Assembly: GCA_963681505.1 (NCBI GenBank)
Contig: OY811974.1
Span: forward strand, 1,323,128 to 1,387,127
Source of the DNA: Eunapius fragilis
Taxonomy: Eukaryota; Porifera; Demospongiae; Spongillida; Spongillidae
Length of the DNA stretch: 64,000 nucleotides
Direction: 5' to 3'
Part shown: one piece after another, positions 1-56,800 of the stretch
Layout: each line of letters starts with the position of its first letter
How positions within the stretch are numbered: the stretch's first letter is position 1
Translations under genes and position numbers: made by a program
Notes under the pieces: model-generated
What the model was told of the DNA's origin: nothing
The model's database searches: none
Seen by the model: only the letters and a program-made list of their open reading frames with translations

Positions 1-738
1 ACTACCTGTACATTGAGGACAATGTTATGACAATCCTAGGGAAGCCTAACCTTAAATAGGAAAAATACGGCGACCCCACTAAAAATCATGGCAAATGTAG
101 TATACAAACAATTTCTTTTGGGAAAAATCTGGTGTGCTTGGTATTGAAGGACCCCATACATTTCTATGGGAAAATATACGGGAATATTCGCTGATTCGCA
201 AACCGCGAATTAATTAGCTTTTCCCTTTGACCGCTCATTTCTGGATATGTGTAGTGTAAACACTAGTGTAAACAGGTAAGGTTAATGCGGTTCGTTCAAA
301 GGAGTGATCAAACTTACAACAGGCTAGGACGCACAACTTCTATATATTTTTGCTTACTTCGTGAAAAATCACGGGCTAATTATTCGTCTCGCCGTTATTC
401 GTCTCGCTATTCATTTGCCAGATGAACAGTTGGTCTACCTTCTAGCTCGTCTTTATTTTACTGTTTTACCATGCAATATATAATCTATACCACCTGTTCT
501 AACATATGATTACTACACAACCTCTATAACATGCCCGCGCAATACAAATATATTATGTCAGGTAGTAACTATGTGTTCTCGGCCTGTAAGATGAGACTTG
601 AGAGTGAACCCACAATAGTGTTGCTTTTATTCTTTCTGCATGTGATGACATTATTACCTGTACAGGCATATAGGTTTTGTGGCAGGCATGGTCGCTAAGT
701 ACGCGTTGCTATGTACTTTTGTGTGGGAGGTGGTCGTT
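1..738. other. No gene recognised (left edge)
   Basis: AT-rich sequence without a reading frame, repeat or RNA gene that I can support. It leads into the promoter-like element at 739-838. Confidence 0.5.
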
Positions 739-838
739 CCTATTGGTTGCTTAGGTACGCGTACATACCTAGCAACCAATAGGCGCTAGGCCGAGTATAT
801 AAATGAGTTACGCGGACGTACGTACGTACGAACGTCGA
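739..838 (+). promoter_or_regulatory. Promoter-like CCAAT palindrome followed by a TATA box
   Basis: Positions 739-783 form a palindrome whose two halves each contain a CCAAT box (CCTATTGG and its mirror CCAATAGG) around a central TACGCGTA. A TATA box, TATATAAAT, follows at 796-804, and an ATG lies 34 bases further on at 838. The spacing is that of a core RNA polymerase II promoter. A purine-pyrimidine run of repeated CGTACGTA lies between TATA and ATG. That it drives transcription is inferred. Confidence 0.4.
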
Positions 839-969
839 TGTTGGAAATTATAGACCAGTTGCGGCGCGAACGTTTATCGTTGGGATGGCCTTATATGGCC
901 ATAATAACGACAAACGTGTTAGTTGTGGGCGTCAATTTCGGTGGCCATTTTGGTGGGCAAAATGTACAG
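838..969 (+). CDS. Possible 44-codon first exon downstream of the TATA box
   Basis: An ATG at 838 opens 44 codons ending at a consensus 5' splice site, CAG|GTGAGT, at 970 (phase 0). The peptide has a hydrophobic middle (TTNVLVVGVNFGG) and no family I recognise. A mirrored, diverged copy of the same exon-like sequence and donor lies in the opposite arm of the inverted repeat at about 1086-1245, lacking about 34 bases. No matching downstream exon was identified. It may equally be transposon-derived sequence. Confidence 0.2.
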
Positions 970-1245
970 GTGAGTATGGGCCAAAATGGAATGGTCACGA
1001 GTTGTGTACAATCGGCTGAACAAATCGGTTCGAAAAGAATTGTGACACTGAGGTAAACATTCAAATTTCTTACCGATAGCTAACTTTTTCGAACCGATTT
1101 GTTCAGCCGATTGTACACAACTCGTGACCATTCCATTTTGGCCCATACTCACCTGTACATTTTGCCCACCAAAATGGCCGCCGAAATTGACGCCCACGAC
1201 TAACACGTTCGACGATAAACGTTCGCGCCGCAACTGGTCTATAGT
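846..1245. repeat. Imperfect inverted repeat, arms about 190 and 160 bp
   Basis: The left arm (about 846-1037) reads GACCAGTTGCGGCGCGAACG; its reverse complement ends the right arm (about 1086-1245). The arms match along their length except for an internal segment present only on the left (about 880-915). The loop is about 48 bases. No clear target duplication was seen. Confidence 0.75.
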
Positions 1246-1270
1246 ATTAGAAGAGATATATATATACAAG

Positions 1271-1570
1271 ATATAAAAATTTAATTAAAATAAAAATTGG
1301 TGATGTAGGATTTGTAGACAGCAATTGAGTAAAAAGTAAGGAAACAAGGAATTACGGATATTAGGCATTCATTTAATTATAAATATTACATACCTACATT
1401 TAGCACAGAATTTCAAGGAGGTAGATTTGCTAAATAATGTAGATCTGTAATATTTATAATTAAATGAATGCCTAATATTCGTAAGTCCTTGTTTGAAATT
1501 CCTTACTTTTTACTCAATTGCTGTCTACAAATCCTACATCACCAATTTTATTTTAATTATTTTTTTATAT
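1271..1570. mobile_element. Foldback element (MITE-like), 300 bp
   Basis: The two ends are reverse complements over about 120 bp. ATATAAAAAT at 1271 pairs with the end at 1570, and AAATATTACA at 1381-1390 pairs with TGTAATATTT at 1446-1455. About 55 bases separate the arms. There is no coding capacity, so this is the structure of a non-autonomous foldback element. Confidence 0.75.
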
Positions 1571-2261
1571 CTGGTTTCACACATTTTTATGCATGAGAAT
1601 AAACGAAGGAGGAAGTTTATATACATATTGAGGCATGTATTGGGCAACCTTAGAATCATACTCTATCGTTGCACAAGAGACCGTTTGATCTAGCTCACAT
1701 GCATTGGGCCTTCATGCTATCCTTCTTACTCTCAGAATCGGCTTTGTAGTGCTTCCTGTCGCAAGTCTTCTTTTTTCATGCGCTTCTTGAAAACTGTCAC
1801 GCTCCTCAATATCTTGCGACTCGCCAACACAACAGTCATCATTTAACTTTGCGATCTTCTTAGAGCGATTCATTTCTCTTCGCGAGCGACGTGACGGCAT
1901 TTTGAAGAAAACAAACCAGACACAACGTCAAGCTTTTGGTACACCGTACAACCGTGACAAAAACTGTAATAGCGCAAATATAGAACGTGTTCAACCACAC
2001 GTTCCCGCCCACTTTAATGTCTTCCAAAGGCCGATAAAATCTGTTGTGGGCTATACTAACAAAACTAAGCTTGCTAGAGATTGAAATTTGTATTAAGCAT
2101 AACTCTCGTTACTAACATAATAAAACAAATCCAACTCGACAATAAGTTTCTAACTTGTTGGTTCTAGTGCTTCCGCATAGCGGCTAACATTATACTTCAA
2201 TCGTGACAAAGATGCAATGCAATAAACCTCTTATCCGAGCAAATGTTATATTATCAGATCC
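1571..2261. other. Mostly unexplained; one weak small ORF
   Basis: The only candidate coding stretch is 1712-1900 on the minus strand: 62 codons starting MPSRRSRREMNRSKKIAKL, basic at its start. No splice partner or family was recognised, so it is not called as a gene. Confidence 0.3.
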
Positions 2262-2347
2262 GGAAGAAGAAGACGAAGAAGAAGAAGAAGAAGAAGAAGA
2301 AGAAGAAGAAGAAGAAGAAGAAGAAGAAGAAGAAGAAGAAGAAGAAG

Positions 2348-2379
<32 letters not shown>

Positions 2380-2538
2380 GAAGAAGAAGAAGGAGAAGGA
2401 GGAGAAGCAGAAGAAGAAGAAGAAGAAGAAGAAGAAGAAGAAGAAGAAGAAGAAGAAGAAGAAGAAGAAGAAGAAGAAGAAGAAGAAGAAGAAGAAGAAG
2501 AATGAAGAAAGAAGAAAGAAGAAGAAGAAAGAAGAAGA
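2262..2538 (+). repeat. (GAA)n microsatellite, about 270 bp
   Basis: A nearly uninterrupted GAA/GAAG run. It gives a poly-glutamate reading frame that should not be read as a protein. Long homopurine tracts of this type can form triplex structures. Confidence 0.95.
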
Positions 2539-2915
2539 TGATAAAGAAGGAGAAACTTTTTTTCAGGTTCGAGTGTGGGAACGAGAGAGCGTTATCTCTG
2601 TTGTCTGAGCTTTCTAAGCGTCTGCAGTTTTATTACATTGTAGGTAATTGTTGGCTGTATCCAAATAGGCTCGCTAAAGTCCCACTGATTCTACGGTTTA
2701 ATTTTTAACCAGCGTAAAGCACTCAATAACAAGGGAAATGTAACAGTCCTATATTTATCACATTATATTGCATAGTTGTGTGCGACATATATGACTATTA
2801 CAATTTACCCTTCGTTCTTGTTCCTTCTTTTTACACTACTATATGCCACCAACTTTCTCATAGTACCATATATATGTATAAATACACTCAACACACACAC
2901 ATACTAAGAACATGA

Positions 2916-3106
2916 TCTAATGAGAAGGTTAGTGCATGGGATGTAGGAATTGAAGGCAAAAGTGGTATTAGGAGTGGAACAAGATTTTTGGGAAACAAAT
3001 AATTGTAACAGAACCAAAAAGAAGGTTTTGCCTTAATTTCCTTTCCAAAAATCCTTGTTCCGTTCTTTCTCTTCAATTCCTATATCCCACTAACTTTCTC
3101 ATTAGA
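2916..3106. mobile_element. TIR element with TCTAATGAGAAGG ends (copy 1)
   Basis: About 190 bp with inverted ends: TCTAATGAGAAGGTTAGTG on the left and CACTAACTTTCTCATTAGA on the right. There is no ORF. The same element sits at the same place in every copy of the EndoU module (8013-8212, 16176-16378, 29877-30067, 35936-36125), so it was there before the module was duplicated. Confidence 0.7.
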
Positions 3107-3366
3107 GAATTACTTGCAGCAACTAAGTCCCTTTGATCTCAATCTCAGGCCAGTGCTATGGTTATGTCATGTGTAACTCCTAAACTACACTTGCGGATGC
3201 ATGTAAACAATAGCTATAAATTATGATCAATCCGTCTGAGAACGAGACGACGTGCGCACAGTTCACCAGGCCAGTTCTTCCACTTCATGAAATCTACAGA
3301 AATTAGAATACACAGCATGCACGTGAAACAATCTAATTAGCAGCTATCGCTAGAAATGGATCGATA

Positions 3367-4061
3367 TCAGTTTTTTACTGCACATGTATTGTTAGCAGTG
3401 CACCTGTTACCAGATCTTTCAGATGGTCGCATTGGCCACGCTGTGCGTATATTCTTATCGTTTCGGTTGGTCACAAGCACAGTGACGTGATTGAGTATAA
3501 TTATTATTCTTAAAGACCTCAACACAATAACGGCTGTTGGCTTGTATTATATTTTTACATGCAGGAGTATTGTAGAGCTGTACAAGGTAGTTTACAGTGC
3601 CTTATATATTTCCAGCGAAGAAAAGTTGGTCCGTCACGCTTGGTGGGTTTACTTTATGTACGAATGCTGCTGGCTTGGCGTTTGCGTTCCACACGTAAGT
3701 ATCCACGTAGCAATGGAATCCTTCAAAACTGACACATCTGTTTCTCACCTCAACAACGTCTAATGGAGGAGCATTATTTGGAAGGCCGTGCACACCTTGA
3801 GCGACTCCCTTGACTATTTGTCCACAGAACAAATGAGTAAGAGCCACTTTGGGCTTTGTATTGCTCCATACTTCTGGCTGAACCGGGCTGTTTGTGTCGC
3901 ATTTAAATTTCTTCGGTGGCACATCTTGAATAGTCTGCACGCATGCGTAAAACGAAAACAGTCACGTTCTTAATTGAACCTTTAGCATATATATACTATC
4001 AGTATATTCTTACTGCGGGAGGAAGGCTTAGCAGCAGTGATAACAAAGCCAATGGTACCAT
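3367..4061 (-). pseudogene. EndoU-like secreted protein gene, broken copy
   Basis: The structure is the same as the intact copy at 7052-7741, mirrored in the palindrome. Exon 1 (4014-4061) encodes a short signal peptide starting MVPLALLSLLLSL and ends at GTAAGA. Exon 2 (3367-3934) starts after a CAG acceptor. A premature TAA follows FFAGNI about two thirds of the way into exon 2. Exon 2 is 568 nt rather than 564 nt, so the tail is also frameshifted. The proline of the FFPG motif is replaced by alanine. It is a pseudogene unless the stop is an assembly error. Confidence 0.7.
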
Positions 4062-4687
4062 CTTTCCTCAAAAATAGTCTGCTTTTCATACAAACATATA
4101 CCATGCACGCGTCGGACTCTGTTTTATATACCAGCCTATGAGTTCCGCCTATACTTTATAATTGCTTTTAGCTTATCGCACAGCGCATGCGCACACGTTG
4201 CTTTCTTCCTGCTCAATTTGGTTCGGTCACAGATACCAGATGAGGTCAATCAGACTCTTAGACTAGTTTAAAATGCCGTCCATACGTATAAGGATATCAT
4301 GACATCGATTCACGGCATCATGGGTTAACAAATGATCCAGGCAAACAACGTCGGTTCCAGCGCCATGTGTGGGGAAACAGCTGCTTCTAGGGTATTAAAC
4401 TTCGTCGTTATAAGAGCGGGGATAATCAGAAAAGGGGGATAACTGAATGAGTACTAGTACTGATGAATTGGTTGGTTAGTTTGTGATTCTGAAACTGACG
4501 CTGTACAATTAACATCGCTTTAAACCTCTTTTTAAAAAGGGAGATGCATGTACCTGTTTTTTATTATCGTCAAACAATAATTCTGATAGACACATACCAC
4601 ACCAATGCACTACTGTAATGGCCAATTACATGCTTCGGTGGTATGCATCCAGCTCTTATTTAAAAAACAGCATGCACAGCTGCTTGT

Positions 4688-4856
4688 GGGACTGAGACGT
4701 ACCATGCTTTGAACTCACCATTCATCTGATGAAATAGATGAAATAGTGCAATGGCATAGTTGTTATGACAGGCGTCGGAAAGGCACTTAAACCTGGGCTG
4801 AAGTATAAGTATGAATTCAGTCCATTGCAGTTCAGAGCATGGTACGTCTCAGTCCC
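4688..4856. mobile_element. 169 bp TIR element (copy A)
   Basis: GGGACTGAGACGTACCATGC at the left end is repeated inverted at the right end; the TIR is about 28 bp with one mismatch. There is no coding capacity. The mirror copy is at 6174-6342 in the other palindrome arm. Confidence 0.75.
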
Positions 4857-7051: not shown

Positions 7052-7741
7052 ATGGTACCATTGGCTTTGTTATCACTGCTGCTAAGCCTTCCTCCCGCAG
7101 TAAGAATATACTGATAGTATATATATGCTAAAGGTTCATTTAAGAATGTGACTGTTTTCGTTTACGCATGCGTGCAGACTATTCAAGATGTGCCACCGAG
7201 CAAATTTAAATGCAGCACAAACAGCCCGGTTCAGCCAGAAATATGGAGCAATACAAATCCCAAAGTAGCTCTTACTCATATGTTCTGTGGACAGATAGTC
7301 AACGGAGTCGCTCAAGGTGTGCACGGCCTTCCAAATAATGCTCCTCCATTAGACGTTGTTGAGGTGAGAAACAGATGTGTCGGTTATGAAGGATTCCATT
7401 GCTACGTGGATACTTACGTGTGGAACGCAAACGCCAAGCCAGCAGCATTCGTACATAAAGTAAACCCACCAAACGTGAAGGACCAACTTTTCTTCCCTGG
7501 AAATATAGAAGGCACTGTAAACTACCTTGTACAGCTCTACAATACTCCTGCATGTAAAAATATAATACAAGCCAACAGCCGTTATTGTGTTGAGGTCTTT
7601 AGGAATAATATACTCAATCACGTCACTGTGCTTGTGACCAACCGAAACGATAAGAATATACGCACAGCGTGGCCGATACGACTATCTGAAAGATCTGGTA
7701 ACAGGTGCACTGCTAACAATACATGTGCAGTAAAAAACTGA
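7052..7741 (+). CDS. Secreted EndoU-like nuclease-fold protein, intact two-exon copy
   Basis: Exon 1 (7052-7099) encodes a 16-residue hydrophobic signal peptide (MVPLALLSLLLSLPPA) and ends at a GTAAGA donor. A 78 nt intron ends TGCGTGCAG. Exon 2 (7178-7741) continues in phase 0 for 187 codons to TGA, about 203 residues in all. The mature part has eight cysteines, as expected for an extracellular disulfide-bonded protein. Its pattern fits the bacterial-type EndoU ribonuclease fold: THMFCGQI, then GVHGLP (two spaced histidines), FFPGNIEGTV in the middle, and a closing strand pair ending RTAWPI. Family assignment is by pattern recall, not by a search. Compared with other copies, exon 1 lacks 36 bp between signal peptide and donor. 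Whether it cuts RNA is inferred. Confidence 0.6.
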
Positions 7742-10920: not shown

Positions 10921-11459
10921 ATACAAGTAATAAAGACATTCTCTATGAGAAAGTTGATGGCATATAGGATTGGATGGCAAAAGGGAAGGAAACAAGGATC
11001 TACTATTAAGGGGTAATGTAATACGCACACAGTTGAACAATATAATGTCCTACAAATATGCTAAATATAGAACTATTCCCATTTTATTTCCTTTTTACAC
11101 CACTATTGCCTTTCAATCCTATATACCAACTTTCTCACAAAGAATGTTTTCTATTACTTGTTCCATCAGTTATTTTTTCGTCATGAGATAGAACATACCG
11201 GTAACTATATTTAATTTAGAGTATTTTGAAATAAGACCATTAGTGGTGTTACACAGTTTAGGAGGGTATACTGTGTGGAGGAGGGGGGGGTGTCTCCTGG
11301 ATGGAATGGTAAAAGGGGGGAAGGAGATCCCTACGTAGAAGTGTGACATCTATGGAAGAGGGGGTGCCTCGATGTGGAGGACAAAGGGCACCTGCTGTGA
11401 AGAGGGTGGGGAATCCCTACTGGTGGAGATGGAAGCCCTGATGTGGTGGAGCAAGAGCA

Positions 11460-13319
<1,860 letters not shown>

Positions 13320-14436
13320 TATATGTGTGCGTGTGTGTTGTGTAGCATTGGAACCTTTCTTTCTGGAGGATGTGCAATTTATTTTTGTGATGTGTTGACA
13401 AGCTACTTCTAGATATGCTCACCTAGAGATGGAAGCCTTGCATACAAGTAATAAAGACATTCTCTATGAGAAAGTTGCTGGCATATAGGAACGGATGGTA
13501 CGTACTACCAGCACCGATATGCATGCACAACATTATGAAGAAATCGTGTCCCTGTCGATGGGTGCCTGACCATTAATAGGCTCATAACCTATAACAGTTA
13601 GTCAGAGCTATGATTTATAGTGCACGGTGTATCAGCTAGGCTATGGGAGAGGCGTGGTCGAGTTAAAGAAACATGCAGACTGGTACACATGTAACCCTTC
13701 CTTATTGCTGGAATTTGCATTCTGCTGGCACATATTTTTTAACGCCCACCGTTTTTCATTTCATCTGCATGGCTGGCACACACACACACACACACACACC
13801 CATGAACCAACACATACACACATCTCATGTCACGCCTATATACACTTTTTCTACCATAAGACACTATTCTTTTCCCCTTGCCTGTAAATTGTTATGTTGT
13901 GTGCTACATAGATTCCCTCATATGCTTTGTCCATTTGAACTTTTTTTTTTCTATGTCTTTCGGTTATAGCGCTTTCACTGGCCTAATATACAACCTCTTT
14001 TTTTGTTATGTTTATATTCAGATTCATTCTCTTTATGTTTGGTCCTACATGTGCAAATATTCCATTACCTTCTATTTCTTTAGTGGTCATAATTGCATCA
14101 GCACAAAAATGGTAGTATGTCTTGTCAGACTCGTGCCCTCCACTGTATGCTCATATCCCATGGTCTTCTCTACATGGTCATGTCGAAAGGCTTCCATGTC
14201 ACTGATGTGGGTGTGTTTTTCACACATGTAACTGGACCGTGTGTCGCATGCATTGGACTGGTGGTAGGAAGCACGGGGGTCATGGGAGCAAATGCCACAA
14301 AACATTTGTCAGAGGCCCCTGTGAGGCTCCACTGTACATGTCCCATATACTATTCACTGTACTGAAATTCAGAGTGTGTTTCATTGGGAGGGTTTTATGG
14401 ACTCCTCTATTTCGTCTGATAGTGGTCATGAAAGAT

Positions 14437-14474
<38 letters not shown>

Positions 14475-14810
14475 CGGGCTCAAATCTCATGTCCCCGTGA
14501 ATGGTACTCTTTCTTATTGGCAGTGCTTACTAAGTTACATGATGGTGGTGCTCTTGTTTATACATGTGTACATACTAGTCCCGGAGCTTCATCTCTGTTG
14601 TGTAAGTAAATACCATGGGTAAATAGAAGCCATGTCAGTGAATGCTCTCTGTATAAACTCTACAGAGGCCCAGTCTTTCCAAATCTTTCAGATAGGCTAG
14701 CAATAATATTCACTGCCACTATATGCAAGGCTTCCATCTGTCTACAAGTAGCTTGCCTACATATAAATCCTCCAAGAAAGGTGCCAATGCTACAAGCACA
14801 CACACACACG

Positions 14811-14868
<58 letters not shown>

Positions 14869-14985
14869 GGTGGTCTTGACAAAACTTAGCAAGCTGTGTC
14901 CGGACCTCCACCAGTGGACACCTTGCTAGCTCCATCACATCTCCTTCATGTTGGGACACCCACACCACTACAAGGCCATCAATGG
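13320..14985. repeat. Right arm of the 3.5 kb palindrome
   Basis: Reverse complement of 11460-13150. It contains a roughly 37 bp poly-G tract (14437-14474) where the left arm has a shorter poly-C tract, and an (AC)n run at 14797-14865. The arm ends at ACAAGGCCATCAATGGATTC. Confidence 0.8.
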
Positions 14986-21598: not shown

Positions 21599-22313
21599 TT
21601 GTGTATGTGAGTGTATGTGTGTATGTCTACGTAGCATTGGAATCATTCTTTTGCAATTTATTTTTGTGATGTGTTGACAAGCTACTTGTAGATCTGCTCA
21701 CCTAGAGATGGAAGCCTTGCATACAAGTGACATTCTCTATGAGAAAATTGATGGCATATAGGATTGGAAGGCAAAAGGAAGAAAACAAGGGTCTACTAAG
21801 GGGAAATGTAATACGCACACAGTTGAACAACATAATGTCCTACAAATGTGCTAAATATAACATATTTCCTCTACTGCCTGTCAATCCTATATACCAACTT
21901 AATGTTTTTATTACTTGTTCCATCAGTTCTTTTTCTTCATGAGATAGAACATAACTATTTTGAAATAAGACCATTAGTGGTGTTACACTGTTTAGGAGGG
22001 GTATACTGTGTGGAGGAGGTGGGGGGGGGTGTCTCTTGGATGGAATGGTAAAAGGGGGAAGGAGATCCCTACGTAGAAGTGTGACATCTATGGAAGAGGG
22101 GGTGCCCTGATGTGGAGGAGCAAGGGGCACCTGCTGTGAAGTGGGTGGGGAATCCCATGTGAAGCAGGTGTCTATTGGTGGGGATGGAAGCACTGATGTG
22201 GTGGAGCAAGTAGCATGCATCCATTGGTGGCCTTGTACCAACATAAAGGGGCTACCATTGGTGGAGGTCCAAACGCAGCTTGCTAAGCGTTTTCAAAGCT
22301 ACCATTGTGTGTG

Positions 22314-22352
<39 letters not shown>

Positions 22353-22549
22353 TATAGCATTGGTACCTTTCTTAGAGGATTTATTTTTGTGCAAGCTACT
22401 TGTGGACAGATGGGAAGCCTTGCATAAGTGGCAGTGAATATTATTGCTTAGCCTATCTCGATTTGGAAAGACTGGGCCACTGTAGAGTTTATACAGAGAG
22501 CATTCACTGACATGGCTTCTATTTACCCATGGGTATGCCCACAGTACTG
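20020..22549 (+). repeat. AC/GT-rich repeat modules inside the element
   Basis: 20020-21720 is a second, tandem copy of the module at 18440-20010. 21720-22549 parallels 10924-11900 (GAGAAAATTGATGGCATATA, a (GT)n run at 22319-22350, CATTCACTGACATGGCTTCT). Sequence continuing this module resumes at 25509, on the far side of the N-RAG element. No genes. Confidence 0.7.
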
Positions 22550-22916
22550 AGTTCACGGGTGTTTCGGAGTGGACATTTACGGATATTTAGATGTCCAGTT
22601 GCCCATTTACGTAAAAATGATTTTGCTAGCTCATTAACGCACTAACATATTCAAGGCCGGTTTCTGCTACGACCCAGTATCACTACGCCTCTCCATTGAT
22701 AACTCCATGCATAGTAATAGTCTAAGCACAAACCCAAATCAACTGCTCACATGTTTATCGCATTTCAACATACGGCGCAACGTTTCTAGTAATCACGTGC
22801 TCCTTAATTCGTTACGAGTGCATCTTTTGTTGGACTATTTGTGAGGCTCTCGAACTTCCAGGTGAGTTGTGACGATAAAATACAGAATCTAGGGGCATTG
22901 TAAAACAATCCAAGCT

Positions 22917-24035
22917 GTGTCACGTCTCGAGACGCGACGTCTAAGGCATATAAAATCGCTGTTGAAATCTATGAATAATTATCAACATCTTGATTTTTAT
23001 AGATGCTTTGCGATTGAGTTCCATTGCAGTCTGCTTACAAAACATTGCAGGGTGTGCGGTGGGAGATTGGTGGTGGCAAATAAATCAAAAAGATTCCCAA
23101 TCTTACAAAAAAGAGCATTTGGTATTGATATGATCATTGATCATGTCACCTTCATTCTGCAAACCATGTATGGAGAGGGAGTTAAGAGGCAGAAAAAGCT
23201 CATACCATTCAGATGGTCATGCCCTACAAATGGAAAGTCCACATGTGTGAAGTGAGTGAAGAGCAAATTATAACTGAATTTAATTACATGATCACATTTA
23301 GGTTTGCCAGCATGTTGAGGTGCTTGTGAAAGGTGGCATGAAGAAAAAATGTGACAAAACATACAGCCAAACATCAAGTGAATCACTACAGTCATTAGTT
23401 GCACATACAGAAATTGCACCAACAATTTCAAATGACTATCTGAAGTGTCCACTCGGCCATTGTGCAGACCAGTAGAGCTGCCATGCCGAAGTCATGTCTG
23501 TGCAGGATGTATCATAACATGCCTGACATTGTCAGCAAAGAACACATGTCCCTGTTGTTATGACAACTCACCTTTAACTGCTTCCAGCATAAATGCAGCT
23601 CCTGACATGTTCCTGTCCCTCCTAAGTGATGTACTGCTTCTATGCGACTCCTGTAAAACAGATCAAACATTTCAGCAGGAGAGTACCTCTCACATGTTTG
23701 CAACACTTTATCTCCTCCATGTGAAATGGATACTGAGGTACAAGTCGGCATCTGTAATTCAAAGAATGCTGTCTGAAAGCCCAGAGCCAAATGTATTGCC
23801 GATTCCAACTAGAGTAAATCCAATTGATAAGTTTGAAGTCTTCAGGAACTGTCAGAACAAACCACAATTGAAGCACAGTAAGCAGTAAGTTGTAAACTAT
23901 TGAAAAGATCACCAAAGAAGGCCTTAAATTGCATGATGGTCCGTTTGTGAAAAGTCACTATGTAACACTTCAGAACATTGGGGTGGAGCCCCAGCAATAC
24001 TTTGGTTGCAACCCCATTCACAAGACTTGAAGGTC
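22917..24035 (+). pseudogene. N-RAG protein: RAG1 N-terminal-region-like, frameshifted
   Basis: Recognisable in order: CRVCGGRL (first zinc-binding pair) and AFGID near 23049-23130; a second Cys/His segment, VCQHVEVLVKGG, at about 23302; then a RING-like zinc finger with CPLGHCAD, PCRSHVCAGC and CPCCY (about 23446-23562); then a conserved SESPEP segment near 23780. This matches the order of the RAG1 zinc-binding and RING region and of the N-RAG proteins known from molluscs and cnidarians. No RAG1 catalytic core is seen. Damage: a one-base deletion at about 23470, between GCAD and PVELP, changes frame in the RING. There is an unclear join, intron or frameshift, at about 23252-23302 (GTGAGT to TTTAG). 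Further shifts lie near 23700, and stops occur after 23888. It lies alone inside the 22554-25504 element. Confidence 0.65.
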
Positions 24036-24076
24036 AGACAATTGTACTGAAAAGATACTTTATTAAGATCAAACTA

Positions 24077-24336
24077 CAGTGTACTATTTCCTTGATTACA
24101 AGTTGTGCTTTCTATTCAGGACACAACTGTACCTGCATTTAAAAATTTACCGGTACTTTAAATTGCTACAGTTGTGTAGTAGTGTTTGCGCACCTTTCGC
24201 TCTACTCGTGCTCCGATTGGCTCTTGACTCGGGTCTGTTCATCCAACTGTACCAAGTCAAAATAGCAGTTAAAATTTTTAATGCGGGTACAATCGTGTAG
24301 CCACAGCTTGTAATCAAGGAAATACGGTAATGGTTA
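24077..24336. mobile_element. Small TIR element nested in the N-RAG element
   Basis: Inverted ends: ATTTCCTTGATTACAAG near 24087 and CTTGTAATCAAGGAAAT near 24308, about 240-260 bp apart. No convincing ORF. Its presence shows the host element was already dead, or tolerated further insertion. Confidence 0.6.
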
Positions 24337-24721
24337 TCATTATATAGCTACTAACCTGAAAGTCTTGTGGTTGTCTATAAAAAATGTGGCCCAGCCAAAT
24401 CCTGTTCTCCTCATGGTTGCAGACAAATCTGAAGGGACATTTGCTACACTTGGAGCATGCCACTCCATCTATGACCAATGTTTTGTAACAGATGGGAAAT
24501 GTTGAGAGTTAGGTAATAGCAACATGACGTCACAGTGGATGAGTATTATTTTTCACATGAAGCTATAGTTCCCTTTATGAACCAATTTCCCCAATGAACC
24601 AAAATGCACCTATTAGAGGAGCACACAGTTGAGTGGGTGAGAGGATACAACTTTTTGGATTTGGCGTGCTGGGTGAGCAAGGTGCTGAATTGATTCACCC
24701 ATCGTTTCAATGCACTTTGTG

Positions 24722-24775
<54 letters not shown>

Positions 24776-25496
24776 TACACGCAGTATTCACCTTTCAGAC
24801 ATAATAGCATTAAATAGGTTGCCATGAGACCAGGATGAGACAAAATATACTTAGCAATTCAAATCTAGCCTATGAACACCCTTACATGCAGTTCAATCAG
24901 AAACAAAGAAAAGAGGCTACGGTGCATCGTTAAAGATCACTTCATAAGTATTGCTCCTGACTTAATCCATGCTCAGCCACCCACAAAGACAGCAAAACGT
25001 ACGCCAAAACACACTGCTGCTTCATAGTAGTGGATTTATATTCACGTACACAAAACACAACACGCGCGTTCCCTATTCCACCTGACGATGTTTGCACGTT
25101 ACTTTTGAAGCATAAAAGTCGCGTCTCAGAAAAAGAGTAACATAAAACGAAAGCTCTATCTATGTACAATACCTTTGTAAAAGTCGTTTCTCAACTGGAA
25201 GTTCGCACGTCCCGGACTAACTAGTTTTGAAAATCTACCTCCGCGTAAGTAGGCCGCTTTTGAACGACACTTCTCCAGACCGATACCATCTTTGATGCCC
25301 AAACATACTTCATTCAGTAGAGCACAGGTTCAACTTCAACAATACTTCGTCTAGAGGGTCATCACGTGTTCTATTCAGTAACTGTACAACGAATTCCAAC
25401 GGGTACAAGTCATTACAACCGTTGCTAGGTGAGGTAATTGCCATTTCAAAATTTTGGGGCGTAGGACTTTTTGTCCATCAATTCAATGGATCGTAA
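24337..25496. other. Right third of the N-RAG element, no gene assigned
   Basis: Contains an (AC)n run (24725-24770) and short open stretches on both strands that I could not assign. The minus strand around 24360-24510 has a Cys-rich open stretch that may be further decayed element coding sequence. Confidence 0.35.
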
Positions 25497-25508
25497 CACC
25501 CGTGAGTT

Positions 25509-25569
25509 GGTATTTTACTTACATGAAGCTTCAGGACTAGTATATATACAAGAGCACCTTGATGGTGAG

Positions 25570-25603
<34 letters not shown>

Positions 25604-26560
25604 CTCATCATTCCAACTCTTTCATAACCATTATCAGCTGAAATAGAGGAGTCTTTAACACCCTCCCAATTTGAGTACAGTGAATGGTATATGGGACATG
25701 TATAGTGCATGGAGCCTCACTGGGGCCTCTGACAAATGTATTGTGACGTTTGTCCCCACGACCTCCGTGCTCCTACCCCACTGACACCAGCCCAATCCAT
25801 GCAACACACAGTCCAGTTGCATGTGTGAAATACATCCACATCAGTGACATGGGGTCCTTTGGACAGACCATGTAGAGGAGGCCATGGGATATGAGCATAC
25901 AGTGGAGGGCATGAGTCTGACAAGACATACTACCATTTTGTGCTGATACAATTATGACCACTAAAGAATCGAAGGTAATGTTACTTGCACATGTAGGACC
26001 AAACATAAAGAGAATGAATCTGAATATAAACATAACAAAAATAGTTGAGAAAGAGATAGGCCAGTGAAAGCACTGTAACTGAAAGATATAGAAAAAAAAG
26101 TTCAAATCGACAAAGCATATGAGTGAATCTATGTAGCACACAACATAACAATTTACAGGGTTTACAGCAAGGGGAAAAGAGTAGTGTCTTATGGTGGAAA
26201 GAGTGTGAATAGTCATGACATGAGACGTGTGTATGTTCATGGGTGTGGTTCATGGGTGTGTGTGCCAGCTGTGCAGATGAAATGAAAATGGTGGGTGTTA
26301 TATGTGCCAGCAGAACGCATATCCCAATAATAAGGAAGGGTTACATGTGTTCCAGCCCGCATGTGTCTTTAACTCGACCACGCCTCTCCCATAGCCAAGC
26401 TGATACACCGTGCACTAGATATCATGGCTCTGACGTATTGTTATAGGTTGTGAACCTATAAATGGCCACGCAATGAGTGCCACCCAAAGAGTATGACCAA
26501 ATCAACAGGGACACAATTTCTACATGATGTTATGCACGCGTATCGGTACTGGTAGTACGT
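25509..26560. repeat. AC/GT-rich repeat module, continued
   Basis: Parallels 11930-13000 in the same order (GAAGCTTCAGGACTAGTAT, a poly-C tract at about 25569-25600, TCATTCCAACTCTTTCAT). It is the right half of the repeat interrupted by the N-RAG element. From about 26045 it also pairs with the left arm of the 11.9 kb element. No gene. Confidence 0.7.
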
Positions 26561-36361: not shown

Positions 36362-37087
36362 TCACAAATACACTGCACATGTATTGTCTGCAGTGCACCT
36401 GTTACCAGATCTTTCAGATGGTCGTATCGGCCACGCTGTGCGTATATTCTTATCGTTTCGGTTGGTCACAAGCACAGTAACGTGATTGAGCTTTTTCTTC
36501 TTAAAGACCTCAACACAATAACGGCTGTTAGCTTGTATTATAGTTGTACATGCAGGAGTATTGTAGAGCTGTAGAAGGTAGTTTACAGTGCCTTCTATAT
36601 TTCCAGGGAAGAAAAGTTGGTCCGTCACGCTTGGTGGGTTTACTTTATGTACGAATGCTGCTGGCTGGGCGTTTGCGTTCCACACGTACGTATCGTTCCA
36701 GCAGTAGAATCCTTCAAAACCGACACATTTGTTTTTCACCTCAACAACGTCTAATGGAGGAGCATTATTTGGAAGGCCGTGCACACCTTGAGCGACTCCG
36801 TTGACTATTTGTCCACAGAACATATGAGTAAGAGCCACTTTGGGCTTTGTATTGCTCCATACTTCTGGCTGAACCGGGCTGTTTGTGTCGCATTTAAATT
36901 TGCTCGGTGGCACATCTTGAATAGCCTGCACGCATGCATAAACGAAAACAGTCACAATCTTAAATAAAACTTCAACATATATATACTATCAGTATATTCT
37001 TACTGTGGAAGGGTCCGGCCTGTTATACTTCTTTCCCTCGGTTAGATCAAGGCTTAGCAGCAGTGATAACAAAGCCAATGGTATCAT
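36362..37087 (-). CDS. Secreted EndoU-like nuclease-fold protein, intact two-exon copy
   Basis: Exon 1 (37004-37087) encodes 28 residues: a signal peptide, MIPLALLSLLLSL, then DLTEGKKYNRPDPST, ending at GTAAGA. A 78 nt intron ends GCGTGCAG. Exon 2 (36362-36925) runs in phase 0 for 187 codons to TGA, giving 215 residues. Motifs in order: FKCDTNSPVQPEVW, ALTHMFCGQI, GVHGLPNN, KNKCVGFEGFYCW, DQLFFPGNIEGTV, SRYCVEVF, HVTVLVTNRNDKN, TAWPI and RCTADNTC. The two histidines, FFP and terminal T-x-W/F-P pattern are those of bacterial-type EndoU domains. Eight cysteines and the signal peptide indicate secretion. This is the best-preserved copy and the only one with both the full exon 1 and an open exon 2. 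A secreted digestive or defence RNase is a reasonable guess only. Confidence 0.65.
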
Positions 37088-42966: not shown

Positions 42967-45639
42967 ATGCAGATGACCGTAAGACGGAAGGCGACCTTGT
43001 TGCTTGCTGCAGCACTTTCCGTTATATTTCTATTGTATCTCATACGCTCTGGCTCCTTCCAAGCTGCATCTTCGTCCACCTTGCCCTCCCGTGCGGAGGA
43101 GATTTCAAAGAGTGCAGCGAGCGGGAAAACCTTCGCGAATAAAGTCGTGCGACAGTTTCCCGCCGCCCAATTGCGCTTCAAGAACTTCGCGTTTCCGGCC
43201 TCGAGGAACGAAAAGCCGAAGCAGCGTGCTTGCGAGCGGTGGGCGGTGGTGACCACCATCTTCGACCCCTCCGAGGCCATAGACCGGCAGTCCAAGCTGG
43301 TCGGGTGGTGCATGGTGATCGTTGGCGACAAGAAGAGTCCGGGAGACTACGACACCGGGTGGACCCGCGGCGAGGGCAACGCGGAGGTGGTGTACTTGAA
43401 CCCGCAGGCACAAGACGCCCTGAGGCTGCCCTTCGTCGACGCCCTGCCGTGGAACCATTTCAGTCGTAAGAACGTGGGTTACCTCTACGCCGTAACTCAC
43501 GGCGCCAAGGTCATATGGGACTTTGACGACGACAACCTGTTCAAGTTCTGGGTTCCGGGAGCAGCGCCGCCCAACTCCCCCTCCATCGACTCCATCTTGT
43601 CGGCGATGGGCGAGACCTCGGTCGCCACCCTCCACCCGGACGGCCACGCCTTCCCCACGTACAACCCTTACCCCGCGCTCGGCGCCCCGAGCGCGCCCTC
43701 CTGGCCGCGGGGGCTGCCCCTGAACCACGTGAAGAGTCCGGAGAGCTACAATGCCACCCTCGTTTCCAGGACAACGGACTCCCGGGCAATAGCCGTGCTC
43801 CAGTCCCTGGCAGACGTCCAGCCGGACGTGGACGCCATCTACCGCCTCATCATGCCCATCCCTTTCAACTTCAAGAGGTCCGTCGAGACCAAGCCTCTGA
43901 TCGTCCCTACCGGTGTGCTCACTCCTTACAATGCCCAGGCCACCTTGCACTTTGAACCCGGGTTCTGGGCCCTCCTCCTCCCCATCACCGTCCACGGCCG
44001 CGTCTCCGACATATGGCGCAGCTACTTTGCGCAGCGGCTGTTCTGGGACGTGGGGCTCCACCTGGGGTTCGCCTCCCGCCCCCTCGTGGTCCAAGACCGG
44101 AACAGCCACAACATCCTCGGGGACCTGAACGCCGAGGAAGACCTGTACCAGAAGAGCGAGTTCCTCGTGAGGTTCCTGGGCTCCTGGAAGAGCAGTGCCC
44201 AGACCCTGGTGGAGCGCGTCGAGCAGCTGTGGGTGGCCCTGTACGAGCACCAGTACATAGAGCTCAGGGACGTGGAGATGGTGCAGCTGTGGCTTCAGAG
44301 CCTCGTCCAGGCGGGTTACCCCTTCCCGCCGCTCCTGCCGAACCAGTTCAACCCGACCAAGCCTCAGGAGGAAGGCGGGAAGGCGGGCAAGAAGAGTCCT
44401 TGCGCGGTGTCAAAGTCGCTCACCTTCTGGACGTCGGACTTACATGACGGCAGTCGGATGGATCTAGCTGCCACTTTGTCCGGCGCTGGTCAGAAGTTGG
44501 TACTTGCGAGCGTCAAGGGTGGCAGCGCCCCTTACCAGAGCGCGTTGGAGCTCCCGGGTGTCGGGTTTACCACGCAGCTCTCTGATGTCGTCCTCCACCC
44601 GCAGGCGCACCCTTACGCCAAGCTGACAGAGACCATGGTAGAAGACAACTTCAGGTTCTACCAGAGCAACCCAGCCGTCGCGTCTGCAGACGCCTTCGTG
44701 TGCGGCTTTCCCGCAGGCGCGTGCGAGATGTGGATGCCCTTCAACAAGTCCGTCATCTTTGTCCCCGCTCACCGCTACAACGTCGGCCGCTGCACAAAGG
44801 CCGAGTGGGAGCGTCTGAACGAGCACATTGGTCTCCTGGCAGCTGCTGCCGGTAGCCACCAGCAACAACCCAAGCACACCATCGCCGCCATGAACAAGTA
44901 CGACCTGGAGTACCTGAGGCACTACACGGGGCTCTCCCCCGTCCCTCTGTTTGGACATGGCCTGTACATGCGCACGGCCGGTTATACCTACTCTGCGAGC
45001 GGAAGGGAGGTCTTGGTGTTCAACTTTTGGCAGAACTCGCTCGCAGAGGCGACGAAGAAGTTTGTTCTCAAGGCTGCCGCCAAGACGGACTCGCACCTGG
45101 TGTTGGACAACTCCGCCAACCACCCTGCCGTCGTCTACTTCCCCAACGCCGTGACCTCGTTCCTGTTTGTGGAGCTCTACTCCTTGGCGGTACCCCTCTT
45201 TGTGCCGAGCATGAAGCTGTTGCGTGCCCGGCAGCATCAGGTCGCCGACAGGACGCTTGCGGGCAGCTCTTACTGCAAGAACGCCGACCTGGACAAGTTG
45301 GTCGGGGCACACCCGGAGTCCAATCACCCGTACAGCCCCAACGTGGAGGGGAACGCAGACCCTGAAGCCGAGGCTTACTGGCTGCAGTTCTCGGACTTCT
45401 TTCAGCTCCCACACGTCGTGTACTTTGACGACTTTGCCGATCTAGGGAGGACGCTGGAGCAGACGGACTTGAGGAAGGTGCATGACCTGATGGTCAAGGA
45501 GAACGAGAAGAAGAGGGCCGAACTGCTACAGAGCTGGTGCAGGGTGGTTGAGGGTGTGGATAAGGGACGCAAGGTTCCCAAGGACTACCCAGCCGCACTG
45601 AAGGCCTTATATGGAGTGGCCCAGCTACAAGTTGATTAA
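42967..45639 (+). CDS. STELLO/DUF288-family glycosyltransferase, type II membrane protein
   Basis: An open frame runs from 42904. I prefer the ATG at 42967 (MQMTVRRK...), which places two arginines just before a single hydrophobic helix (ATLLLAAALSVIFLLYLI), a classic Golgi type II anchor; the 21 residues upstream look like untranslated sequence. Length is 890 residues from this start. The N-terminal half is the DUF288 domain: WAVVTTIFDPSEAI, LVGWCMVIVGDKK, LPWNHFSRKNVGYLYAVTHG, then VIWDFDDDN (acidic metal-binding-type motif), and later VVQDRNSHNILGDL with ELRDVEMVQLWL. The C-terminal half (FWTSDLHDGSRMDLAATLSG to LPHVVYFDD) resembles the second domain seen in algal and invertebrate members. 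Plant STELLOs act in the Golgi on cellulose synthase assembly; the animal substrate is unknown. There are no introns and the GC content is much higher than in the flanks. Confidence 0.85.
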   Translation: MQMTVRRKATLLLAAALSVIFLLYLIRSGSFQAASSSTLPSRAEEISKSAASGKTFANKVVRQFPAAQLRFKNFAFPASRNEKPKQRACERWAVVTTIFDPSEAIDRQSKLVGWCMVIVGDKKSPGDYDTGWTRGEGNAEVVYLNPQAQDALRLPFVDALPWNHFSRKNVGYLYAVTHGAKVIWDFDDDNLFKFWVPGAAPPNSPSIDSILSAMGETSVATLHPDGHAFPTYNPYPALGAPSAPSWPRGLPLNHVKSPESYNATLVSRTTDSRAIAVLQSLADVQPDVDAIYRLIMPIPFNFKRSVETKPLIVPTGVLTPYNAQATLHFEPGFWALLLPITVHGRVSDIWRSYFAQRLFWDVGLHLGFASRPLVVQDRNSHNILGDLNAEEDLYQKSEFLVRFLGSWKSSAQTLVERVEQLWVALYEHQYIELRDVEMVQLWLQSLVQAGYPFPPLLPNQFNPTKPQEEGGKAGKKSPCAVSKSLTFWTSDLHDGSRMDLAATLSGAGQKLVLASVKGGSAPYQSALELPGVGFTTQLSDVVLHPQAHPYAKLTETMVEDNFRFYQSNPAVASADAFVCGFPAGACEMWMPFNKSVIFVPAHRYNVGRCTKAEWERLNEHIGLLAAAAGSHQQQPKHTIAAMNKYDLEYLRHYTGLSPVPLFGHGLYMRTAGYTYSASGREVLVFNFWQNSLAEATKKFVLKAAAKTDSHLVLDNSANHPAVVYFPNAVTSFLFVELYSLAVPLFVPSMKLLRARQHQVADRTLAGSSYCKNADLDKLVGAHPESNHPYSPNVEGNADPEAEAYWLQFSDFFQLPHVVYFDDFADLGRTLEQTDLRKVHDLMVKENEKKRAELLQSWCRVVEGVDKGRKVPKDYPAALKALYGVAQLQVD

Positions 45640-46433: not shown

Positions 46434-46480
46434 TGTATAAAAGGTGAGTTAAAAGAATAAGCTGCATTTCAGCATGAGAG
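46434..46480 (+). promoter_or_regulatory. TATA-box promoter of the Merlin-type transposase relic
   Basis: GTGTATAAAAGG at about 46433-46444 is a strong TATA box about 37 bases before the ATG at 46481. The position fits a transposon's own promoter. Confidence 0.45.
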
Positions 46481-47331
46481 ATGGCTCAAGCTCAGTTGCC
46501 ACTGCACTGTGACCAGTGGTTGGCCACATCACATATAGAGATCTCTGCACAGCATTGTCAGTCAGACGTTGATTCAACGGTGCATTGGTGCCAGCGATAC
46601 AAACTGCTTGCAGAGAGGAAAAGCTGCCTGAAATGGGGACGGGAAATGCACCTCGATAAGAGGAAAGCAGAAAATAAAGAGCAAGTGGGATGGAGATGCC
46701 CAAGAAAAGGTTGTAGGCATTATACATCCGTTTGCGTATGTGTCTGCTTTGAACAGGTTGCTGCCCAAATGGCCGTGGACTGGTACAATTTTATTCGTGA
46801 CATCTGTGCTCAGTATATTTTATTGATCACCCAACCATCATTGGAGTGGAAGTAGAAATTGATGAGAGCAAGTTTGGGAAGAGAAAATACAACCGAGGCA
46901 GGCAGGCAGGTGAAAGGTCACCGGGTGTTTGGAGGAACTGAGAGGATAACTGGAGAGTCAAGGTCGAGCACAGAGATGCTGCCACACTCCTTCCTCTCAT
47001 CCAGCACCACATTCATCCTGACAGTACCATCTACAGCGATGAATGGAAGGCATACAGTAGAATTACTGCCACTGCCGGGATGTCACATGAGACCGTGAAC
47101 CATTCACTCCACTTTGTGGACCCAGCTACAGGTGCACACACACAGGGTGTGGAAGCGATGTGGAGCTCCTGTAAGCGTCTAATGAGAGAAGAGAGGACTA
47201 TGCATTCCAATCTATTTGACACCTACCTCCCTGAATTCATGTGGAGACGTCGATTTAATGGACCCGAAACTTTCTCTAATATTGTAAGGCACATAGAAGA
47301 ACAATACCAGGTGTTTAGGTTGTGTACATAA
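46481..47331 (+). pseudogene. Merlin-type (IS1595/ISXO2-like DDE) transposase, frameshifted
   Basis: The N-terminal zinc-ribbon region is readable (KSCLKWGREMHLDKRK then WRCPRKGCRHYTSV), with one expected Cys replaced by Trp. About 30 residues of the following helix-turn-helix region are missing before VDWYNFIRDICAQY. The DDE core follows in shifting frames: IDESKFGKRKYNRGR (first Asp), TIYSDEWKAYSRI (second Asp), NHSLHFVDPATGAHTQGVEA (Glu in GVEAMW), and a tail ending WRRRFNGPETFSNIV. Frameshifts lie at about 46815 (T-run), about 46905 (GGCAGGCAGG slippage) and about 46957. All three acidic catalytic residues survive. The terminal inverted repeats were not located. Confidence 0.8.
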
Positions 47332-53800: not shown

Positions 53801-56800
53801 CTACATAGTGTTGTGTGCCCTTGTTATTCAACCATCCCTACATAGTGTTGTGTGCCCTTGTTATTCAACCATCCCTACATAGTGCTGTGTGCCCTTGTTA
53901 TTCAACCATCCCTACATAGTGATGTGATCCCCTTGTTATTCAACCATCCCTACATAGTCTTGTGTGCCCTTGTTATTCAACCATCCCTACATAGTGTTTG
54001 TGTGCCCTTGTTATCCAACCATCTCTACATAGTGCTGTGTGCCCTTGTTATTCAACCATCTCTACATAGTGCTGTGTGCCCTTGTTATTCAACCATCCCT
54101 ACATAGTGTTGTGTGCCCTTGTTATTCAACCATCCCTACATAGTGTTGTGTGCCCTTGTTATTCAACCATCTCTACATAGTGCTGTGTGCCCTTGTTATT
54201 CAACCATCTCTACATAGTGCTGTGTGCCCTTGTTATTCAACCATCCCTACATAGTGTTGTGTGCCCTTGTCATTCAACCATCCCTACATAGTGTTGTGTG
54301 CCCTTGTTATTCAACCATCCCTACATAGTGTTGTGTGCCCTTGTTATTCAACCATCCTTACATAGTGTTGTGTGCCCTTGCCATTCAACCATCCCTACAT
54401 AGTGTTGTGTGCCCTTGTTATTCAACCATCCCTACATAGTGTTGTGTGCCCTTGTTATTCAACCATCCCTACATAGTGTTGTGTGCCCTTGTTATTCAAC
54501 CATCCCTACATAGTGATGTGATCCCCTTGTTATTCAACCATCCCTACATAGTCTTGTGTGCCCTTGTTATTCAACCATCCCTACATAGTGTTTGTGTGCC
54601 CTTGTTATCCAACCATCTCTACATAGTGCTGTGTGCCCTTGTTATTCAACCATCTCTACATAGTGCTGTGTGCCCTTGTTATTCAACCATCCCTACATAG
54701 TGTTGTGTGCCCTTGTTATTCAACCATCCCTACATAGTGTTGTGTGCCCTTGTTATTCAACCATCTCTACATAGTGCTGTGTGCCCTTGTTATTCAACCA
54801 TCTCTACATAGTGCTGTGTGCCCTTGTTATTCAACCATCTCTACATAGTGCTGTGTGCCCTTGTTATTCAACCATCCCTACATAGTGTTGTCTGCCCTTG
54901 TTATTCAACCATCCCTACATAGTGTTGTGTGCCCTTGTTATTCAACCATCTCTACATAGTGCTGTGTGCCCTTGTTATTCAACCATCTCTACATAGTGCT
55001 GTGTGCCCTTGTTATTCAACCATCCCTACATAGTGTTGTGTGCCCTTGTCATTCAACCATCCCTACATAGTGTTGTGTGCCCTTGTTATTCAACCATCCC
55101 TACGTAGTGATGTGTGCCCTTGTTATTCAACCATCTCTACATAGTGCTGTGATCCCCTTGTTATTCAACCATCTCTACATAGTCTTGTGTGCCCTTGTCA
55201 TTCAACCATCCCTACATAGTGTTGTGTGCCCTTGTCATTCAACCATCCCTACATAGTGATGTGTGCCCTTGTTATTCAACCATCCCTACATAGTGTTGTG
55301 TGCCCTTGTTATTCAACCATCCCTACATAGTGTTGTGTGACCTTGTTATTCAGCCATCCCTACGTAGTGTTGTGTGCCCTTGTTATTCAACCATCCCTAC
55401 ATAGTGTTGTGTGCCCTTGTCATTCAACCATCCCTACATAGTGTTGTGTGACCTTGTTATTCAGCCATCCCTACGTAGTGTTGTGTGCCCTTGTTATTCA
55501 ACCATCCCTACATAGTGTTGTGTGCCCTTGTTATTCAACCATCCCTACATCGTGTTGTGTGCCCTTGTCATTCAACCATCCCTACATAGTGTTGTGTGCC
55601 CTTGTTATTCAACCATCCCTACATAGTGTTGTGTGACCTTGTTATTCAGCCATCCCTACGTAGTGTTGTGTGCCCTTGTTATTCAGCCATCTCTACATAG
55701 TGCTGTGTGCCCTTGTTATTCAACCATCCCTACATAGTGTTGTGTGCCCTTGTTATTCAACCATCCCTACATAGTGTTGTGTGCCCTTGTTATTCAACCA
55801 TCCCTACATAGTGTTGTGTGCCCTTGTTATTCAACCATCCCTACATAGTGTTGTGTGCCCTTGTTATTCAACCATCCCTACATAGTGTTGTGTGCCCTTG
55901 TTATTCAACCATCCCTACATAGTGTTGTGTGCCCTTGTCATTCAACCATCCCTACATAGTGTTGTGTGCCCTTGTTATTCAACCATCCCTACATAGTGTT
56001 GTGTGCCCTTGTCATTCAACCATCCCTACATAGTGTTGTGTGCCCTTGTTATTCAACCATCCCTACATAGTGTTGTGTGCCCTTGTTATTCAACCATCCC
56101 TACATAGTGTTGTGTGCCCTTGTTATTCAACCATCCCTACATAGTGTTGTGTGCCCTTGTCATTCAACCATCCCTACATAGTGTTGTGTGCCCTTGTTAT
56201 TCAACCATCCCTACATAGTGTTGTGTGCCCTTGTTATTCAACCATCCCTACATAGTGTTGTGTGCCCTTGTTATTCAACCATCCCTACATAGTGTTGTGT
56301 GCCCTTGTTATTCAACCATCCCTACATAGTGTTGTGTGCCCTTGTTATTCAACCATCCCTACATAGTGTTGTGTGCCCTTGTTATTCAACCATCCCTACA
56401 TAGTGTTGTGTGCCCTTGTTATTCAACCATCCCTACATAGTGTTGTGTGCCCTTGTTATTCAACCATCCCTACATAGTGTTGTGTGCCCTTGTTATTCAA
56501 CCATCCCTACATAGTGTTGTGTGCCCTTGTTATTCAACCATCCCTACATAGTGTTGTGTGCCCTTGTTATTCAACCATCCCTACATAGTGTTGTGTGCCC
56601 TTGTTATTCAACCATCCCTACATAGTGTTGTGTGCCCTTGTTATTCAACCATCCCTACATAGTGTTGTGTGCCCTTGTTATTCAACCATCCCTACATAGT
56701 GTTGTGTGCCCTTGTTATTCAACCATCCCTACATAGTGTTGTGTGCCCTTGTTATTCAACCATCCCTACATAGTGTTGTGTGCCCTTGTTATTCAACCAT

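Follow-up and report, generated by a model that had tools for sequence, protein, structure and literature searches.

A probable non-autonomous Chapaev-type transposon carrying a decayed RAG1-like N-terminal gene in the sponge Eunapius fragilis

Within a 64,000-nucleotide stretch of the Eunapius fragilis genome (contig OY811974.1, positions 1,323,128 to 1,387,127; hereafter the window, whose own numbering is used below), an element at 22554-25504 on the forward strand begins with CAC and encloses a decayed gene resembling the N-terminal region of RAG1. A sequence-only reading of this locus took it for an N-RAG transposon, in which a RAG1 N-terminal module is mobilised by a Transib/RAG-like mechanism with the catalytic protein supplied elsewhere. 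The question raised by the locus is whether such a module travels here in its own right or belongs to a larger transposase. From its genomic copies and a full-length relative with matching ends, we conclude that the element very probably belongs to a Chapaev-type family of DNA transposons, as a non-autonomous form with an internal deletion, an assignment that rests on the ends, the duplication length and the core motifs.

The element has 10-bp inverted ends that can be read directly in the sequence and that recur at the ends of its copies. The left terminal inverted repeat, CACGGGTGTT, occupies 22554-22563 on the forward strand, and its reverse complement occupies 25495-25504; a T/A mismatch comes next and CG after it, just as had been noted earlier. 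AGTT target-site duplications lie at 22550-22553 and 25505-25508, supported by the sequence, the flanks of copies and an empty-site alignment. The AGTT repeat of the earlier reading therefore stands, but its alternative, GAGTT, is not found on both flanks, the left reading CTGAGTT and the right AGTTGG. The paralogous empty site proposed near 11905 was recovered as well: the flanks with a single AGTT align to a stretch at about 11664-12200 with an ungapped junction (CTGAGTTGGTATTT versus CTGAGCTGGTATTT) and with gaps 10 bases before the junction and 8 bases after it. The repeat hosting the element has three or more occurrences within the window (11371-12370, 14090-14917 and 22104-25954).

A search of the genome (219 Mb, 24 contigs) with the whole element yielded at least 40 long copies, the window's among them, that are 90-98% identical (best 40 of 171 candidates); this copy number is a lower bound because 40 of the 171 first-look candidates were scored. 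Ends were analysed in 39 copies, including the window's and leaving out fragment L047, and were counted as recognisable when 20 or more of the outermost 24 bases were present. Both ends passed this threshold in 35 of 39 copies, and the four with one unrecognisable end (L029, L035, L043 and L046) were omitted from the duplication count. The left end CACGGGTGTTTCGG was present in 34 of these 35 copies and the expected right end in 33, with the last bases altered in L013 and L038. Exact 4-bp target duplications flank 26 of the 35, and 5-bp duplications flank four (L015, L016, L039 and L044), which represent three independent loci, L015 and L016 having common flanks. Five copies (L013, L024, L026, L032 and L038) have neither, and here L026 and L032 share flanks. 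As a control for chance, mismatched flank pairs agreed in 10 of 1190 cases, so the 4-5 bp duplications anticipated at other copies are indeed there. The element boundaries and transposition are well supported by these matching duplications across copies together with the empty site. Pairwise divergence among 38 copies has a median of 3.3% and ranges from 0.03 to 8.2%.

The 5' part of the gene inside the window copy follows the order Chapa then RING and is interrupted by frame changes and an apparent 50-bp intron. The decayed coding part for Chapa, the RAG1 N-terminal zinc domain, lies at 22941-23323 (+) and contains frame changes; it was located by tblastn with an exon of L065, one of two full-length-type relatives described below (52% and 75% identity, E 4e-38). 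The decayed part for the RING finger and the zinc finger that follows it lies at 23302-23834 (+), located by tblastn with an exon of the other relative, L064 (56% and 64% identity, E 8e-50). Sequence and splice product point to a probable GT-AG intron at 23252-23301 (+) between the two exons; its removal yields ...CEVCQHVEV, and gene model P0010 of Ephydatia muelleri reads ...CEVCQHFEV. The window's own frames matched no RAG1 family in Pfam at E up to 10, and a read-through of the gene pieces had RAG1 as its best PDB match, weakly (E 0.015); the RAG1 assignment therefore rests on less decayed relatives. Predicted structures were too poor to use, mean pLDDT being 35.7 for the RING exon and 46.6 for the Chapa exon.

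These relatives match RAG1 by profile and so uphold the earlier description of a decayed gene with the zinc-binding and RING order of the RAG1 N-terminal region. For the Chapa exon of L065, the Pfam match is RAG1_imp_bd (PF12560), with 31.4 bits against a cut-off of 23.3 (E 1.9e-7), and the best PDB match is a RAG1 N-terminal entry (E 0.0011). On its own, the L064 RING exon drew no Pfam match at an E-value limit of 1. When the RING-zinc finger exon was combined with six relatives as a profile, RAG1 was the best match (E 4e-5, with the next molecule at 0.008), and by best-match rank in profile comparisons the RING and zinc finger are nearer to RAG1 than to other RING proteins. With a profile built from 15 related transposases, residues 106-377 of RAG1 fall into a single alignment (E 3.3e-15). 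The profile check against RAG1 proposed with the sequence-only reading thus succeeds for the L065 exon and the 15-relative profile but not for the window's own frames. Like the N-terminal region of vertebrate RAG1, the sponge block has a Chapa-like zinc domain, a RING and a zinc finger in the same order, colinear with residues 106-377; unlike it, the sponge block precedes a Chapaev-type core and not a RAG1/Transib core.

The RAG1-like part is not the sole content of the window copy. On the same strand as the N-terminal gene, KMHLLEEHTVEWVRGYNF and GFGVLGEQGAELIHPSF at 24547-24707 match the C-terminal exon of a DDE-type transposase; this remnant, which the L064 exon hits by tblastn at E 5e-14, holds both the H(4)H motif (KMHLLEEHTVEW) and a GEQGAELIH segment. 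Further forward-strand remnants are a segment that follows the LH motif, at 23813-23926 (tblastn, 59% identity, E 1e-6), a segment with EGLKLHDGPFVKSHYVTLQNIGVEPQQYFG at 23899-24076 (blastn, 81% identity to L064 3576-3761) and the last transposase coding part at 24872-25024 (tblastn, 83% identity, E 3e-22). The last exon alone had no meaningful solved relative in a PDB comparison. Of the Chapaev transposase motifs, the window copy retains only H(4)H, together with the region where the last E presumably lay. The idea that a RAG1 N-terminal module defines the element was thus not sustained, the RAG1-like part being the N-terminus of the very transposase whose C-terminus remains inside.

Alignment with L064 by blastn places the junction of an internal deletion of about 1.65 kb at 23812-23817 (+), at which both candidate catalytic Asp residues and the C(2)C and LH motifs are gone. 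All 40 short copies examined share it, having 10 or 20 bases where L064 has 1666 and L065 has 1656. They likewise all carry an insertion of about 250 bp with inverted repeats, at 24077-24326 in the window, that is absent from L064 and L065. The window element therefore corresponds to L064 with about 1.65 kb removed and a 250-bp insert added, and the presence of both changes in 40 of 40 short copies fits a single founder copy, with the qualification that the short copies were found by their likeness to the window copy and that their common deletion is partly the result of this selection. The insertion, with TATTTCCTTGATTACAAG near one end, resembles a small non-autonomous transposon that had landed inside the founder copy.

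L064 itself is a full-length element of 4,407 bp (419-4825) flanked by a 4-bp duplication, GTGG. Its outer 40 bases are identical to those of the window copy at each end, and 94 and 98 of the outer 100 bases match. It encodes an N-terminal gene of the window type, followed by segments with GGDKGGGSF, HGDYEYL, PCMYC, LH and HLLEEH, in which the Chapaev motifs C(2)C (PCMYC), LH (GLHITQ) and H(4)H (HLLEEH) can be located; the candidate catalytic Asp residues D1 (GGDKGGGSF) and D2 (HGDYEYL) were assigned by inspection. L065, the second full-length-type copy, is 96% identical to L064 over 3999 aligned bases, has lost its 3' end and differs by one base at its left end. The three motifs are present in both and, by simple patterns, in many of 39 relatives. 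A search for intact copies with a DDE core thus found the core, in full-length L064, but not the intactness: both L064 and L065 carry frame changes, and no intact helper of the element's lineage was present among the copies examined. Rough dN/dS values for the Chapa, RING and last exons, comparing L064 and L065 with each other and with the window copy, are 0.14-0.40 on 5 to 39 changes each, and another segment gave 0.81.

The L064 exon with the candidate first catalytic Asp (L064:2431-2730) matches Pfam PF06918 (DUF1280) above the cut-off. This family of unknown function seems to belong to the transposase core. The genome holds at least 150 matches to DUF1280 at E up to 1 (best 150 of 168 candidates), the 17 weakest of them under the cut-off. 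A search with the C-terminal transposase piece gave at least 150 matches (best 150 of 426 candidates), many of them stop-free and L064 among them. With a core segment that is absent from the window copy, L064 and L065 matched at 98-100% and the others at 65-89% over no more than about 600 bases (best 40 of 93 candidates).

Relatives from other genomes indicate that the RAG1-like part forms the first quarter to third, counted from the N-terminus, of a Chapaev-type transposase, as judged from sequence, because gene models and aligned relatives join block and core in one protein. The nearest named transposase relatives are from the freshwater sponge E. muelleri, the best being 88% identical over 42% of the query. 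RAG1_imp_bd and DUF1280 occur together in the Ephydatia-type gene models P0018, P0019, P0021 and P0024, whose 'Em' names we read as E. muelleri, and among the 15 aligned relatives RAG1_imp_bd is found in nine and DUF1280 in all 15 at E up to 0.01. By simple patterns, the HP..C..C of Chapa is present in 12 of the 39 relatives and RING in 17 of 39, many of these relatives being partial gene models. In a 975-aa relative from the crinoid Antedon mediterranea, both the RING and the core patterns are present; of Chapa it shows the first cysteines but not the HP..C..C pattern. Two related cores, P0046 and P0048, have another N-terminus. A copy of another Chapaev family, L066, has a D1 exon whose protein sequence is 71% identical to that of L064; neither Chapa nor RING was found upstream in L066, which may be 5'-truncated, even with the N-terminal part of the E. 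muelleri-type P0014 as the query.

Elsewhere in the genome, end searches gave at least 12 further places with one or both ends, L064 among them (best 40 of 93 and best 40 of 95 candidates), and all 12 lie near a match to the N- or C-terminal gene, which argues that the ends go with the element's gene or with deleted forms of it. Among the matches listed, the N-terminal gene is near nine of them and the C-terminal gene only near three (G000:C1:8487825-8488668, C10:8116911-8118413 and C18:1217949-1219024), which are perhaps further deletion forms without the RAG1-like part. The possibility raised earlier, that the ends might recur without the gene and with a different transposase, finds no place lacking both gene matches, but three lacking the N-terminal one among the matches listed; L064 alone was read in sequence.

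How, then, do competing accounts of the element fare? Chapaev elements, as characterised in passages of PMC4079192, have CAC...GTG ends, 3-4 bp duplications and C(2)C, LH and H(4)H motifs. The sponge element has CAC...GTG termini within its inverted repeats, and the duplications of 26 of 35 copies fall in that range, with the 5-bp duplications at three independent loci outside it. Were a RAG1 N-terminal module alone moved by a Transib/RAG-like enzyme with 5-bp duplications, the CAC ends, the RAG1 homology and those same three loci would be accounted for, but the predominance of 4-bp duplications, as in Chapaev, speaks against the Transib/RAG mechanism that had been suggested, and the remnants of the transposase core set the element apart from an N-RAG-TP-type sequence without such a core. 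The full-length copies largely refute this account, as the full-length form with like ends carries a Chapaev-type core, and matches of the family profile to RAG1 chains at E up to 10 involve positions 6-244 only, with no second stretch among the best 60 of 119 hits; a weak match to Transib might lie further down the ranking, and the cores may be homologous beyond what sequence comparison can show. We regard the account as very improbable. Spread of the copies by segmental duplication of one insertion, in place of transposition, appears more improbable still: it would suit the two pairs with common flanks (L015/L016 and L026/L032), but the remaining copies are on many contigs and have differing flanks with matching duplications.

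Deleted P elements make a truncated product that regulates transposition, and by analogy the sponge deletion derivative might have been kept for a truncated RING-containing product. An open RING frame of about 140-197 aa does persist in several copies, but the frames vary from copy to copy, and the longest forward open frame from stop to stop across 38 copies, at 197 aa, does not include Chapa. Nor are changes among the 38 copies more frequent at third codon positions where the sequence once coded (RING 77/46/67, Chapa 57/90/65), as read beside a non-coding control that is itself uneven (38/113/73). Such a regulatory role seems improbable, if slightly less so than the two accounts above.

For the deleted Chapaev-type family, we propose that the full-length form would encode one transposase in several exons, comprising a Chapa domain, a RING finger, a zinc finger, a linker and a DDE core. 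A founder copy would have lost about 1.65 kb with both candidate catalytic Asp residues, carried the 250-bp insert and kept its ends, and would then have been amplified by a transposase acting in trans on the CAC-starting ends. Because the segment with both candidate residues is absent, the deleted copies must presumably be moved in trans, so the earlier suggestion that the catalytic protein is supplied elsewhere remains a supported one. By their ends, L064-type elements would be the obvious helpers; as L064 and L065 are both damaged, the actual helper may have died out, be missing from the assembly or be a different Chapaev. Going by the Chapaev hallmarks, a full-length transposase would cut the element out at its CAC ends and insert it with a stagger, leaving the 4-bp and sometimes 5-bp duplications.

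Chapaev transposases with Chapa and RING domains are known already: in passages of PMC4411706, Kapitonov and Koonin (2015) describe two Chapaev subgroups with a Chapa domain and then a RING finger and discuss them as ancestral to the RAG1 architecture. The sponge family resembles those elements in its CAC...GTG ends, mostly 4-bp duplications, C(2)C/LH/H(4)H core and Chapa then RING in one protein, and differs in being a deletion derivative and in its 5-bp duplications at three independent loci. Titles and abstract openings mention no sponge Chapaev with RAG1 domains, and nothing closer than PMC4411706 appeared in the open-access literature at this level. Our analysis adds the sponge genome, the recent deletion-derivative family, the block aligned through the zinc finger after RING and the 5-bp exceptions. 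With Transib/RAG transposons the sponge element has in common CAC ends and the C(2)C and H(3-4)H motifs, which passages of PMC12730594 describe as common across the clade including Transib/RAG; unlike them, it makes mainly 4-bp and not 5-bp duplications. N-RAG-TP of Aplysia, described in part of PMC8355894 as entirely RAG1 N-terminal-like sequence and cited there to Panchin and Moroz 2008, is likewise a transposable element with RAG1 N-terminal-like sequence; in a comparison by description only, the sponge element differs in retaining transposase remnants.

An apparent "N-RAG only" transposon can thus arise by internal deletion of a Chapaev already carrying a RAG1-like N-terminus, which weakens one line of argument that the N-terminal half of RAG1 was donated by a free-standing N-RAG transposon. 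One possible but rather doubtful reading is that the Chapa-RING-zinc finger block is a module exchanged between CMC/Transib-type cores, so that RAG1 would have its N-terminal half from a Chapaev transposase and not by shared descent of the whole protein. The block's match to RAG1 (E 3e-15) without a core match among the best 60 of 119 hits points this way, as do related cores with another N-terminus (P0046, P0048) or with no detectable block (L066). The view of Kapitonov and Koonin, as far as set out in those passages, would instead have the block ancestral and lost elsewhere, and is compatible with our results. With the Chapa-RING-zinc finger order now placed in a sponge genome, a recently amplified family and Ephydatia gene models, the sponge block can help to test when a catalytic core acquired the N-terminal half of RAG1.

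The window holds several other features. Two very similar 207-aa frames lie in opposite orientation at 7118-7741 (+) and 36362-36985 (-), the first matching no Pfam family. An intron-free open frame of 889 aa at 42970-45636 (+) has best relatives that are 71-73% identical and contain PF03385. Remains of an IS1595/Merlin-type transposase occupy 46942-47328 (+; PF12762, E 2.7e-15), whereas no Pfam family was matched by the frame immediately before it (46478-46852). A 37-bp tandem array of about 215 copies with 96% matches extends over 54000-61946, where 54000 is the start of the scan, and this stretch has a strong composition skew.
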